A DNA stretch of 64,000 nt from Sycon ciliatum. Taxonomy: Eukaryota > Porifera > Calcarea > Leucosolenida > Sycettidae. The notes under the pieces were generated by a model. That model was given only the letters and a program-made list of their open reading frames with translations, did not search any database and was not told where the DNA came from. The position numbers were made by a program, and so were the translations under genes. Each line of letters opens with the position of its first letter. The stretch's first letter is position 1. Shown here one piece after another: positions 3,101 to 9,100 of this stretch. The stretch spans positions 17,242,648 through 17,306,647 of the forward strand of contig NC_088655.1 of NCBI RefSeq assembly GCF_964019385.1, written 5' to 3'.

Positions 3101-6100
3101 GGAAGTGTGAGTTACGAAGTCTGAAGAAAATGTTGAACGGCCTCTGCTGGGATGACGACTACACCATAGCTCAGTGGTTAGAGCATCGCTGGCTACAAGC
3201 GAGGGTCCCTGGTTCGAGTCCTGGTGGTGACAGTCAATTTTTTCTTCAGACTTTTCCCGTTTGTCTCTTTCCCTCAAACTAGTTAATATTTTATGACTTG
3301 GGGCTCCCCGCGTGCTAGTTTGTACGTGAAGTGTGTGGGTTACAGTGAGGGCTGCGTCCCACCCGCCTGTGTGGATTCACAGGAAGTGTGAGTTACGAAG
3401 TCTGAAGAAAATGTTGAACGGCCTCTGCTGGGATGACGACTACACCATAGCTCAGTGGTTAGAGCATCGCTGGCTACAAGCGAGGGTCCCTGGTTCGAGT
3501 CCTGGTGGTGACAGTCAATTTTTTCTTCAGACTTTTCCCGTTTGTCTCTTTCCCTCAAACCAGTTAATATTATTATTATTATTATTATTAATTATCCTCG
3601 CTGTGGTGATGGTGATGTGAGTGCAGAGTTTAGATCGGCCAGGAGCGCAATGTGGTGGTGTGGTGTATTGGATTACATAATGGCCGGGTCGCCGCTACTT
3701 CTTCTCAACTTAGTTTCATTAAAAATTATAATTATGGCGATTTAGGCTGCATCTGCGCCTTTGATCCAAGAGGGTGGTGGCGTTCCCACGGCGGATGCGG
3801 AAAACTCGGCTTCCGGCCGAGTCTCACGCGAACCGTGAAATTTAGTTTTACTGATGGCGAATTAGTGATGATGGCACAAGAGCATTGAAGATTCCCTTGA
3901 TGCCGGAACCAGCTACCAAAAGCGCGCGCTGAATACTAGCCACTTTCGGCCCAAGCACAATGCGTGGGAGCTGCACCAGGCGAGGAAACTCGATCATCAC
4001 AAACTCTGGCCGAGCTGGGCAAATCTGTAATGGTATTACGCAGTAGCTGCATATACATACAGAGAAATTGTTAAGGTCATGAACATGTCAGATTCAACTG
4101 AAGAAGGACACATTATTGTTGTATTGTTTTGAATAGAAAAAGTGACTGAGGAATGTCTGAACGGAACCCACAATTGTTCTAAACATGCTACTTGCGAATA
4201 CAACGACTACTCGCCCAACAACTACTCCTGCAGGTGCGATCGAGGAAAAGGTGAGATCTGGTCCCCCACCCTCTCCTTTGGTTTCGCTCTATATTGGCAT
4301 GAAGTTGCACGGAAGGAGGCATAAAGCGAGTTGCGCAATCAATAAACAGGTAAGGTATCTTTGTACAGAGCATTTAGATGGGACTTGTGTGTGCAGCTAT
4401 ATCGTATTCTTCCACACTGCTCAATGATGTATGCTCGTGTTTCCGTTTTTGCTTTAGCTGACTGCTTTGCAACCGTGTTCGACTCTCAGGTCTTGGGCCA
4501 CTGTGCTAAAGTCGGGGAGGTGGTGAAGGTCGACTGCATAGATGACTACATTCCTACTAAATCACCGTACATGCTATGCAAGCACTCTAAGTTGGACAAT
4601 GTTACACAGTACAATGTTACAGCTGTCTTCTGTCAACGTGAGTTGTAAAAATTTAATAAATCGTTGGGTGGAAATCGCTGGGTGGATCAAGGTAAAAAAA
4701 TTTATGTTTCGCGTTTTACACAGTTAAACTGAGACTTTGACATCCGCAGGGACGCCACCACACTGCAAAAATCAAAGTCCTAGTGCAGCTCCAAGCGTTC
4801 GTTGAGTTTGAGTAGATCAGAACCACTGTAACAAGTAGCCGAGTGGTAGGCGCGGTGAAATCAACAAGAATTAGTTTTATTCTACTTCTCTCAGGTACAT
4901 ACCTGAGATAATTATTAGTGAAAGAAGAAGCGGCAAAATAATAACTTTCTCTCCGGTGCTCACCTAGAGGTTGACTACTTCTTCTTCGAGTTAGCTTTGT
5001 CGTTGCTATCTAATCTAATCAAAACAGAAATGCGCAGCAGCTTTTATGCAGCAGACGCCGTACGCTTACATACGTAGAGAAACTAAAGCTCCGTATTAGT
5101 TCCGTACTACTTCCGTATTGTTTGGGCAGGGATACTACACCCTCCCTTCCTACAGATAATCACGCCCTCGTGATTTTCAAAAAAATAGTGAAGAGTTATG
5201 AACACAGCGTCAACCGGAAGATGGCAAATTATATCGGAAATGATAACGTTTAGAGTAGACAGAAGAAATGAACTGATAACAAATCATAACATAGAAGTTA
5301 GAGCACACCAGGTTCACACGATATCTCGGGGTCAAAAGGGAAAGAATGGTCCTCCAAACAGGACGTGAAAGACAGCCACATTCCTGTACATCGCGGGCTC
5401 AAACTGCCAGGAAATTCACAATTTCAAAAAAATGCACTGCATCGTGGGAACTTACTCCGGTACACACCTGGAGTGTAAAAGGGGATTCTCACACACTTCT
5501 CTCACCAGGTTATTTAGGTAAACCATGGCTCGCCATGATCAGACGCCTACCAAACTAAACTGGATTCACACACTCGCATAAAGGAAGACTGAAGAGAACA
5601 GGGAGACTGAAGGAAGGCAGGAAAGAAAATGCCATAACTGGAATCAGCGTTAGTAACCACGGCGGCGGCTGAAGCTACGACGGAGGGCAAGCCAGGTTTT
5701 ATCTTCATCTTGGTTTAGAGCGGCTAGCTCGGCGTCAGACAAATGACCTCCCTCCTCCTCTTGAATCGTGGTCTTCACATTGTCGACAGCATCGCTGTGC
5801 GCGACGTAAAGAGTGATGGTCTAGCCAGGAAGAGTGTTGACGAAAATCTGCATCCCACCACGGAGGCGAAGTACCAAGTGAAGAGTGGGCTCCTGCTTCC
5901 GACTGCGTGCCGGCGAAAATCAAACGCTGCTGGTCTTGGGGAATACCCGCCTTGTCTTGGGCAGCAGCCTGCCTGTTGTCGTCCTCATCAGCTTCGCCAT
6001 CACCACTAGTAGTTAACATGTAGGTAGCGGGTCGCTTGGAATCGCCATCGGAGTCTCCAGTGGATGCCATGCGGAGGGAGGGGTGATCCACGCTAGCACC

Positions 6101-9100
6101 CTGACTGTGCTGCAAGCTAATAAGTAGAGCCAAGCCCAGGACGGGTAGAAACACGATTCTCATCTTAATTCGTCGCACGGAGCTGCAGCGGGTTGAGCCA
6201 TGGGGGTCTGGGGTCGAATCACGTTGTTTTATTTCAAAAATACACCGCTGCCACCAATGTAACAGGTAGCCGAGTGGTAGGCGCGGTGCAATTAACAAGA
6301 ATTACTTTTATTCTACTTCTTTCAGGTACACACCTGAGATATAATTAGTAGTGAAAGAAGAAGCGGCAAAATAAATAACTTTCTCTCCGGTGCTCACCTA
6401 GAGGTTGACTACTTCTTCTTCGAGTTAGCTTTGTCGTTGCTATCTAATCTAATCTTCCTCAAAACAGAAATGCGCAGCCGCTTTAATGCAGCAGACGCCG
6501 TACGCTTACATACGGAGATACACTAAATACTACTTCCGTATTGGTCGGGCAGGGATACTACACCACCACCACCAGTTTGGTTAAAAACCCGAAAATCCCA
6601 TTAGCTCCATCCATGTTTCTCTCTCGCCATAGATGTCACTAAGATTTCATGACGAAACGAAACAGGGTGGAGCTAGGTGCCGGATAGTTCTTTGGATCCT
6701 GTTGATTTGTGAGTCTCTTTTGCCGTGTTGGGGAGCATATAATCTGGGTACATCAGTGTTGGTGTTATTATTCTGATACTATATATGGGCATCAACCAGC
6801 GAAAACAGCCCTTAGGGTCAACATTTTCAAAATTCCTTTTTGGTTAGAAATGAACCACATCTACTGAAGGACCTCAGCCAAGAAAAAGTTCAATATTCCG
6901 ATTCAAAACGGGTGTTTACACCAATATACAAGGTGTACTCCAAATTGGTGCAATGCATGTATACGATGTATGTGTACAATGAATATTCAGCATTCAAAGG
7001 TGGGTGGGCAGCTTGAATACTTTTGAAATAGTGTAATGGGTAGCCGAGTGGTAGGCGCGGTGAAATCAACAAGAATTACTTTTATTCTACTTCTTTCAGG
7101 TACACACCTGAGATATAATTATTAGTGAAAGAAGAAGCGGCAAAATACCTTTCTCTCCGGTGCAAACCTGGAGGTTGAATAGCTCGTTATTATCAAAATC
7201 TCATCTAAACAGAAATGCGCAGCAGCTTTTATGCAGCAGACGCCGTACGCTTACATACGGAGATACACTAACTATACATCAGGCAAAGCTCCATATTAGT
7301 TCCGTACTACTTCCGTATTGGTCGGGCAGGGATACTACACCCTCCCTTCCTACAGATTATCACGCCCTCGTGATTTTCAAAAAAATAGTGAAGAGTTACG
7401 AACACAGCGTCAACCGGAAGATGGCAAATTATATCGGAAATGATAGCGTTTAGAGTAGACAGAAGAAATGAACTGATAACAAATCATAAAATAGAAGTAA
7501 AAGCACACCAGGTTCACACGATCTCACGGGGTCAAAAGGGAAAGAACTGTCCTCAAACAGGACCTGAAACCACAGCACTCTTGCTGCACTACGCTGGCAC
7601 AACCCGCCAGGAACATCGCAGTTCAAAAACCGAACTGAATACACTATAACTATAAGGGGCGTTGTCACACACATTGTCCCACGTTAGCTGGGTAAACCGT
7701 GGCTCACCATGATCAGACGCCTACCAAACTAAACTGGATTCACACACTCGCATAAAGGAAGACTGAAGAGAACAGGGAGACTGAAGGAAGAGAGGAAAGA
7801 AAATGCCATACCTGGAATCAGAGTTAGTAACCATGGCGGCGGCTGGAGCTACGGCGGAGGGCAAACCAGGTTTTATCTTCATCTTGGTTGAGCCGGTCAC
7901 TCAGAGCGGCTAGCTCGGCGTCAGACAGATCATCCCCCCTCCTCGTCTTGAAACGTGGTCTTCACATTGTTGATAGCATAGCTTGGCGCGACGTAAAGAG
8001 TGATGGTGTGGCCAGAAAGAGTGTTGACGAAAATCTGCATCCCACCACGGAAGCGAAGTACCAAAGTGAAGAGTGGGCTCCTGCTTCCGACTGCGTGCCG
8101 ACGAAAATCAAACGCTGCTGGTCTTGGGGAATACCCTCCTTGTCTTGGGCAGCAGCCTGCCTGTTGTCGTCCTCATCAGCTTCGCCATAACCACCAGTAG
8201 TTAACATGTAGGTAGCGGGTCGCTTGGAATCGCCATCGGAGTCTCCAGTGGATGCCATGCGGAGGGAAGGGTGATCTACGCTAGCACTCTGACTGTGCTG
8301 CAAGCTAATAAGTAGGGCCACGCCCAGGACGGGTAGAAACATGATTCTCATCTTAATTCGTCGCACGGAGCTGCAGCGGGTTGAGCCATGGGGGTCTGGG
8401 GTCGAATCACGTTGTTTTATTTCAAAATACACCGCTGCCACCAATGTAACAGGTAGCCGAGTGGTAGGCGCGGTGCAATTAACAAGAAATACTTTTATTC
8501 TACTTCTTTCAGGTACACACCTGAGATATAATTATTAGTGACAGAAGAAGCGGCAAAATAACTTTCTTTCCGGTGCAAACCTGGAGGTTGAATAGCTCGT
8601 TATTATCAAAATCTCATCTAAACAGAAATGCGCAGCAGCTTTTATGCAGCAGACGCCGTACGCTTACATACGGAGATACACTAACTATACATCAGGCAAA
8701 GCTCCATATTAGTTCCGTACTACTTCCGTATTGGTCGGGCAGAGATACTACAATAGTTAAGTAAGCAGCTATAATGACAAAGAATAGCTGATGACAGCGG
8801 AGAAATGATCGACATATTCGCAGCTGCATCCTGCGTGGAGTCGTTCCGCAATCTCGTCTTCCATTTCTTCCTCCGCAGCTGAAGACACGGCGTCGCTGCC
8901 GTCACTAGCCCCAGACTCAGAATTTATCTCAGGTGACGACTCCTCATCTTCCGACTCTGACGAGTCATCGGCCAGCTTGAGCCGCATCGGAGCAGGAGAT
9001 GACGGCTGCGATTCCGCCTCGCTGTCGACATCGATGTCGGAACCAAAGAACGTTTCATCCTCATTCTGAACTTCAGCGGCTACTTCAGCACTCCCCACCA

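Follow-up and report, generated by a model that had tools for sequence, protein, structure and literature searches.

The two neighbouring elements E1 and E2, located at 4827-6562 and 7032-8752 on the minus strand of a 64-kb stretch of the Sycon ciliatum genome (C14:17242648-17306647, hereafter the window), very probably arose by the nested capture of two host messenger RNAs through template switching, a unit of polyubiquitin lying within the message of an acidic secreted-type gene, and by subsequent amplification of the resulting chimera. The best explanation for these two elements and their family is a non-autonomous long terminal repeat (LTR) retrotransposon of S. ciliatum that uses a machinery of the Ty3/gypsy type.

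Both insertions carry LTRs with TG..CA ends and are flanked by 4-bp target-site duplications (TSDs; CCAC in E1 and ATAG in E2), with a primer-binding site (PBS) adjoining the 5' LTR and a polypurine tract (PPT) adjoining the 3' LTR, so that the ends and the strand proposed in a previous sequence-only reading of the window were borne out. The LTR pair of E1 is identical at 281 of 296 aligned bases (94.9%) with 26 gap columns, and that of E2 at 299 of 308 (97.1%). The internal parts, of 1118 and 1105 bp respectively, agree at 987 of 1091 aligned bases and contain one strongly diverged block. The PBS, TGGTGGCAGCGGTG, matches at 14 of 14 bases what we take to be the 3' end of an animal tRNA-Leu; its exact form is found in the window only at 6243-6256 and 8430-8443, three further sites having two mismatches. 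An antisense 5' half of tRNA-Leu at the LTR end was also considered and rejected (score of 19 versus a maximum of 23 in 2000 shuffles). The open reading frames (ORFs) of E1 and E2 contain no gag-pol, as had been claimed, apart from a gag-type start codon retained in the leader, which resembles that of the partner elements described below.

The search for a host gene with the same putative signal peptide and tail as the element led to contig C109 (13,353 bp), where three spliced exons of 64, 45 and 198 bp encode exactly the protein P0055, named in its source as 'TFIID subunit 7-like, partial' from S. ciliatum. This gene has introns and lacks ubiquitin, and no exon beyond the three was identified in the 1370 bases remaining to the end of the contig. 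P0055 contains the signal peptide and the acidic linker of the element, followed directly by DLSDAELDALSDKLNQEEDEAK, which matches the tail of the element. The basic tail, previously regarded as novel, therefore had to be rejected as such, since it matches the next part of the host gene that the signal peptide also matches. At the DNA level the host 5' untranslated region (UTR), exon 1 and the two ends of exon 3 are recognisable in the element, the match downstream of the ubiquitin piece comprising 35 of 44 nt in E1 and 65 of 79 nt in E2; exon 2, whose 45 bp are too short for a DNA search, is visible in the protein alignment only. As the introns are absent from this copy, the alignments indicate the capture of a spliced host message, of which the element holds an intron-less version (5' UTR and exons 1-3). 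The proposal of a host ubiquitin gene placed behind a signal peptide is thus correct with respect to the fusion, but signal peptide, linker and tail correspond to one gene and the ubiquitin lies inside its exon 3. Two hallmarks of gene transduction are found, namely intron-less host exons within LTRs and the fusion of more than one host gene. No Pfam match was obtained for P0055, and a protein search for its relatives retrieved 20 proteins, consisting of P0055 itself and 19 already known element proteins. In its general character P0055 resembles the spicule-formation proteins of Sycon, Triactinin, Diactinin and Spiculin, described in the available part of PMC5390275 as acidic, secreted and aspartate-rich with a signal peptide, although we do not claim that it is one of them.

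In both elements the C-terminal part of ubiquitin precedes the N-terminal part, as previously noticed. The two main pieces per element score 98-141 against a ubiquitin dimer and a third piece in E1 scores 69, while the maximum over 300 Markov nulls was 56 for E1 and 48 for E2. Furthermore, internal positions 299-508 of E1 (210 bp) align to 242 bp of a host polyubiquitin array with E = 3e-48; the difference in length corresponds to a deletion that accounts for the frame change. The suggestion that a non-autonomous LTR element took up a head-to-tail polyubiquitin junction is supported, and the junction can be traced to a host array on contig C1. The same does not apply to the single frame that was thought to encode the whole product. 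In E1 and E2 the signal-peptide ORF enters ubiquitin at residues ~31-53 and exits the ubiquitin frame after ..GTQSEAG, the junction LVLR(L/F)RGG-MQIFV is read in a different frame from that ORF in both, and E1 has a TAG at ubiquitin codon 11. No complete 76-residue ubiquitin unit was found in one frame, and a single intact reading frame in the window copies was rejected because the deletion within the ubiquitin piece splits the frames. Comparison with the Pfam ubiquitin profile, put forward as a check, gave a divided result: the match is strong in six proteins of relatives whose frame is free of the deletion (E 6.6e-14 to 2.9e-16) and weak in the window copies, where three of six frames matched with E 0.019-0.066, under the curated cut-off.

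A genome search with the ubiquitin profile gave 982 candidates, the best 150 of which were scored. Among those 150 we found 12 complete units, formed by two polyubiquitin arrays (5 and 6 units) and one fusion gene, which we take to be of the L40 type; the remainder comprises six other long matches and 132 matches that start, like the element copies, at profile position 26 or later. The element floods the annotation of ubiquitin in this genome with fragments. Host ubiquitin carries D24 and T28 (E24D and A28T with respect to the human protein), and D and T are likewise the usual residues of the element at these two sites; E2 has N24. The ubiquitin part of the 33 copies with a continuous frame (see below) shows a mean nucleotide identity of 88.0-88.6% to three of the five C1 units and of 84.5 and 81.4% to the remaining two, compared with 72-78% for the C4 units and 75.5% for the L40-type fusion. 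By these comparisons the host polyubiquitin array on C1 is the nearest ubiquitin donor. Up to codon 11 the copies commonly show P38Q, K48T, E51A, I61V, K63Q, L67I, K6N, T9P and a stop at K11. Separately, the searches retrieved P0054, a protein of 100 aa on a 920-bp contig with ubiquitin followed by an Arg/Ser-rich tail.

The inserted ubiquitin amounts to one unit (codons 31-76 and then 1-35) nested within host exon 3. At the first join GAGCAAGACGAGGACAAGG in host exon 3 meets ATTCAAGACAAGGAGGGT in ubiquitin, and at the second CAAGACAAGGAGGGT in ubiquitin meets GAAGAGGAGGGTGACTTG in the host; both joins occupy codons 31-35 of ubiquitin, separated by one repeat unit, and lie in short A/G-rich matches. 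Since the same codons are used one unit apart, template switching is the simplest reading, and switching at short matches is a general mechanism according to the available parts of PMC5408686 and PMC13317346. We propose that a reverse transcriptase (RT) would leave the element RNA for the host mRNA close to the gag start, and would pass within the acidic tract of this message to the polyubiquitin mRNA at the A/G-rich match of codons 31-35, copying one repeat unit and switching back once the same match recurs one unit further on. A partner would then mobilise the chimera and its copies would multiply. In this mechanism the ubiquitin piece may represent a cargo without the work of ubiquitin, at most a secreted peptide.

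Further copies were found in the genome (538 Mb, 313 contigs). A protein database search gave 54 matches, 53 of them with E < 1e-12, and a genome search with P0055 gave 1386 first-look candidates, of which 150 were scored; all 150 matched, one being the host gene, and among these best 150 of 1386 none of the 149 beyond C109 reaches past P0055 residue 80. No relative was found in viral contigs. The copy set used hereafter (n = 61) consists of 59 of the 150 scored matches together with E1 and E2; it underlies the selection tests, and its selection by protein similarity to P0055 favours intact frames. The signal-peptide frame is continuous through ubiquitin 31-76 in 33 of the 61 copies, although a stop comes earlier in L007 and the usual ATG is missing from L004; the count depends on motifs, so that a copy with altered motifs is missed. 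At codon 11, 31 of these 33 have TAG, one has TAT and one TGG. In 17 of 61 copies the signal-peptide frame takes in the LRLRGG motif as well as the tail, so that an older, longer frame is likely to have existed. A rough motif rule, which includes the truncated L057, labelled 20 of the 61 copies as deleted. A deletion subset comprising both window copies has lost the ubiquitin frame as well.

The LTRs indicate the age of the family. TG..CA ends with a 4-bp TSD were present in 20 of 31 other LTR pairs, versus 1.0 expected when the flanks of these 20 are paired anew; the scan tolerated small shifts and the control did not, and copies whose motifs have changed register as misses. For the 31 pairs that measure 250 bp or more and lie outside the tandem array mentioned below, the median identity is 98.4% (range 76.4-100%), with 13 at 99% or above and five at 100%, some pairs being cut at the end of the stretch. 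The many copies, some with identical LTR pairs, show that the family has spread, and that it has moved recently. Exact motifs were counted genome-wide 567 times for LTR end plus PBS and 541 times for PPT plus LTR start, with 0 for the reversed-pattern controls; these counts take in partners and other elements. The copy number is probably in the hundreds. At C226:468438-475019 (L018-L020, L023) at least four near-identical copies form a head-to-tail array with a period of 1465 bp.

A partner was identified at C2:22725556-22730617, where gag, protease, RT, RNase H and integrase, an order from protease to integrase that we take to be typical of Ty3/gypsy, lie between PBS and PPT motifs identical to those of the family. 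The window elements share with it a leader of 72-73 nt that contains the gag start, as well as the final 37 nt ahead of the 3' LTR. A few tens of bases of its LTRs were covered, and its 5' LTR ends differently from that of the window copies save for the last bases. From these shared ends we infer that the C2 partner mobilises the ubiquitin element in trans. For 71 of 100 PBS sites on C1 and C2, the same strand carries a PPT motif no more than 9 kb away, at a spacing of 1000-1450 bp in 51 cases, 700-1000 bp in 14, less than 700 bp in two and 4.5-9 kb in four; as motifs were matched exactly, these counts are lower bounds. Two of these four long pairs span ~5.04 kb, one of them being the C2 partner; the other two were rejected as single partners, the 7086-bp pair running into the PPT of another copy and the 6732-bp pair beginning inside the ubiquitin-element copy L106. 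The Ty3/gypsy element of the window itself (12.6-17.7 kb) was likewise rejected as partner, having different direct repeats and lacking the PBS. Twenty PBS sites on C1 fall outside the list of 150 matches. By eye, 12 of them show similarity to the family across more than 150 nt, L095 and L106 match its first part only, L103 and L107 show nothing recognisable, and L093, L100, L102 and L110 are other elements with a Met-Ala-Gln-Pro gag-type start, a relative of it or its remains. The stretch around L093 (L113) combines the PBS with a zinc-knuckle gag ORF, a protease and a 5' LTR 81-90% like the LTRs of the type-1 copies; RT and further pol were not seen within the stretch examined. Downstream of this truncated partner copy, L113 4792-5847 contains a frame of 351 aa with a RING finger (zf-RING_2, 9.5e-10). 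The sites L100, L102 and L110 (C1:9802098, C1:12781714 and C1:40453453) form a second short group that has the same PBS and, 935-996 bp from it, a PPT motif; the gag-like start is present or has left remains, and no ubiquitin is recognisable in the 251 bases seen of each.

Several observations weigh against a nested capture followed by the spread of a neutral cargo. The mobilisation is deduced from shared ends, with the LTRs of the C2 partner known from a few tens of bases, and no element free of ubiquitin was found with 150 of 1386 candidates scored, the order of capture being read from the nesting. The ~520 nt preceding the PPT have no assigned source; for E1 5177-5694 the comparison with C109 yielded a single, unconvincing match of 16 nt (E 0.53), and those with the partner pieces and polyubiquitin yielded no convincing one; the stretch is perhaps the 3' part of the captured mRNA. 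Furthermore, host gene and element are strongly diverged (proportion of synonymous differences, pS, 0.37), so that the donor may have been a paralogue of P0055. Such divergence also leaves room for a capture in one step of a host paralogue already bearing ubiquitin, given that 150 of 1386 candidates were scored, and the insertion of ubiquitin into a host gene via the same kind of short match is conceivable as well. However, no ubiquitin-bearing paralogue was met among the best 150 of 1386, and the two joins, set in short matches at identical ubiquitin codons with one unit between them, fit template switching as described in the available part of PMC5408686; we consider the paralogue very unlikely. 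A chance resemblance or an assembly artefact could be argued from the Pfam matches under the cut-off in the window copies, but it is practically negligible, as the Markov nulls were exceeded, the DNA-level alignment reached E = 3e-48, matches occur on many contigs, and 5 of 55 database-search proteins, coming from other, shorter contigs, are letter-identical to genome copies when the first residue is omitted.

The alternative with most in its favour concerns function, namely that a lysine-poor C-terminal fragment of ubiquitin works as a secreted product, either helping the element or co-opted by the sponge, and that selection maintains it. The frame is gap-free from the signal peptide to ubiquitin 76 in 33 of 61 copies, and up to codon 11 four of five lysines were replaced compared with five of 52 other residues (Fisher p 0.0015), a post hoc test whose p becomes 0.012 when the observed mutation spectrum is simulated. 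Of the 59 segregating variants 39 are nonsynonymous, versus 76% expected. In 55 of 61 copies the TGA of a gag-start ORF of 12-15 codons overlaps the ATG of the signal peptide (four of the misses lack the signal-peptide ATG and two the gag-type ATG); this overlap, however, is inherited in shared DNA and not independent per copy, and the copy selection itself favours intact frames. Among 50 distinct copies the ratio of nonsynonymous to synonymous divergence (dN/dS) is 0.59 in the frame versus 0.69 and 1.16 in the other frames, and its closeness to the 0.69 control leaves constraint unclear. Against a product also stand the 20 deleted copies of 61 and a structure model of the intact ORF product without a confident fold (predicted local distance difference test, pLDDT, 53.5; predicted template modelling score, pTM, 0.29). 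The N-terminus of the ORF product is hydrophobic by eye, and the low-confidence model has one helix.

Other points count against a neutral cargo. The dN/dS between host and element is 0.33, versus 1.6 and 2.9 in the other frames, a low value that must be partly due to the constraint of the host itself; ubiquitin lysines were lost more often than expected; and eight of 16 widely shared changes are nonsynonymous versus 77% expected, these being sites at which at least 90% of the 33 copies differ from a C1 unit, with host synonymous change included. Measured against three C1 units, the dN/dS of ubiquitin 31-76 is 0.24-0.40, little below the 0.34-0.45 found past the stop, and this small difference counts against a function. 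We thus regard a function of the chimera as unlikely, and it is equally improbable that the family built and dispersed a new secreted protein, under selection, from an acidic secretory gene and a lysine-stripped half of ubiquitin. Nested capture by template switching followed by amplification is retained as the most probable explanation.

TRIM-type elements are short non-autonomous LTR elements. The sponge element is like them in its size of 1.7 kb, its LTRs of ~310 bp, the absence of gag-pol and its inferred dependence on a partner, and unlike them in bearing host coding sequence. Gene-transducing LTR elements are already known from the maize retroelement Bs1, in which segments of three host genes in one element form a new chimeric gene (PMC5408686 and PMC13317346, in their available parts). 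Like Bs1, the sponge element is an LTR element with fused fragments of several host genes; unlike Bs1, it resides in an animal, one captured gene is nested in the other, gag is reduced to its start, the second capture is one unit of a tandem-repeat gene, and the copies are probably in the hundreds. It shares with LTR-mediated retroposition an intron-less host sequence within an LTR element and joins at short matches, whereas the products of that process are described in the accessible text of PMC5408686 as retrocopies and the chimera here is the body of a multiplying family. Host ubiquitin insertions are also found in pestivirus genomes, where they serve as a signal for polyprotein processing (PMC8310069, in its available part). 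In both cases host ubiquitin coding sequence was taken up by a replicating element; unlike the viral insertions, the sponge ubiquitin sits behind a putative signal peptide, without residues 1-30 in frame and without a confidently predicted fold. Among the matches listed in a search of the open-licence literature, no earlier report was found of an LTR element with captured ubiquitin or of a sponge that hosts an element of this kind. The family provides a legible case of an LTR element building a chimeric gene, with the donors (or close relatives), the joins, the lost introns and the partner in one genome, and the tandem repeats of polyubiquitin make template switching readable through entry and exit at the same codons, one unit apart.

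Table 1. Parts of E1 and E2 in window coordinates.
Feature	Position	Strand	Remark
E1 TSD CCAC	left 4823-4826, right 6563-6566		
E1 3' LTR, 313 bp	4827-5139	-	
E1 PPT GTAGGAAGGGAGGG (5140-5153) and pre-PPT sequence	5140-5176	-	37 nt, 92% like gag-pol partner
E1 internal stretch without assigned source	5177-5694	-	
E1 tail, end of host exon 3	5695-5760	-	homology to host gene
E1 signal-peptide ORF	5735-6163	-	142 aa (including stop)
E1 polyubiquitin piece, ubiquitin 31-76 then 1-35	5750-5959	-	frame-breaking internal deletion, codon 11 TAG
E1 acidic linker, host exon 3 upstream of ubiquitin piece	5950-6059	-	83/110 nt
E1 host 5' UTR and exon 1 (signal peptide)	6098-6190	-	74/93 nt
E1 leader with PBS 6243-6256 and gag-type ATG 6199-6201	6185-6257	-	73 nt, 82% like partner
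E1 5' LTR, 305 bp	6258-6562	-	
E2 TSD ATAG	left 7028-7031, right 8753-8756		
E2 3' LTR, 308 bp	7032-7339	-	
E2 PPT (7340-7353) and shared pre-PPT sequence	7340-7376	-	37 nt, 89% like partner
E2 tail, end of host exon 3	7869-7947	-	65/79 nt like host gene
E2 polyubiquitin piece, ubiquitin 31-76 then 1-35	7937-8148	-	internal deletion and frame change
E2 signal-peptide ORF	7962-8351	-	129 aa (including stop)
E2 host exon 3 upstream of ubiquitin piece	8137-8247	-	84/111 nt
E2 host 5' UTR and exon 1	8286-8378	-	74/93 nt
E2 leader with PBS 8430-8443 and gag-type ATG 8387-8389	8373-8444	-	72 nt, 83% like partner
E2 5' LTR, 308 bp	8445-8752	-	

Elsewhere in the window, two tRNA-like genes with anticodon CTA are located on the plus strand at 3160-3232 and 3441-3513, 281 bp apart in duplicated surroundings; each scores 37.9 bits against the Rfam tRNA model, a program using the bacterial code calls them tRNA-Pyl, and the pair is probably a tRNA-derived repeat. 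The Ty3/gypsy-type element at 12596-17707 (plus strand), recognised by eye, has identical direct repeats of 160 bp and long frames, without the PBS of the ubiquitin element. Long frames of two LINE-type elements, with endonuclease and reverse transcriptase also recognised by eye, lie at 53711-57976 on the plus strand and at 58382-61381 on the minus strand.

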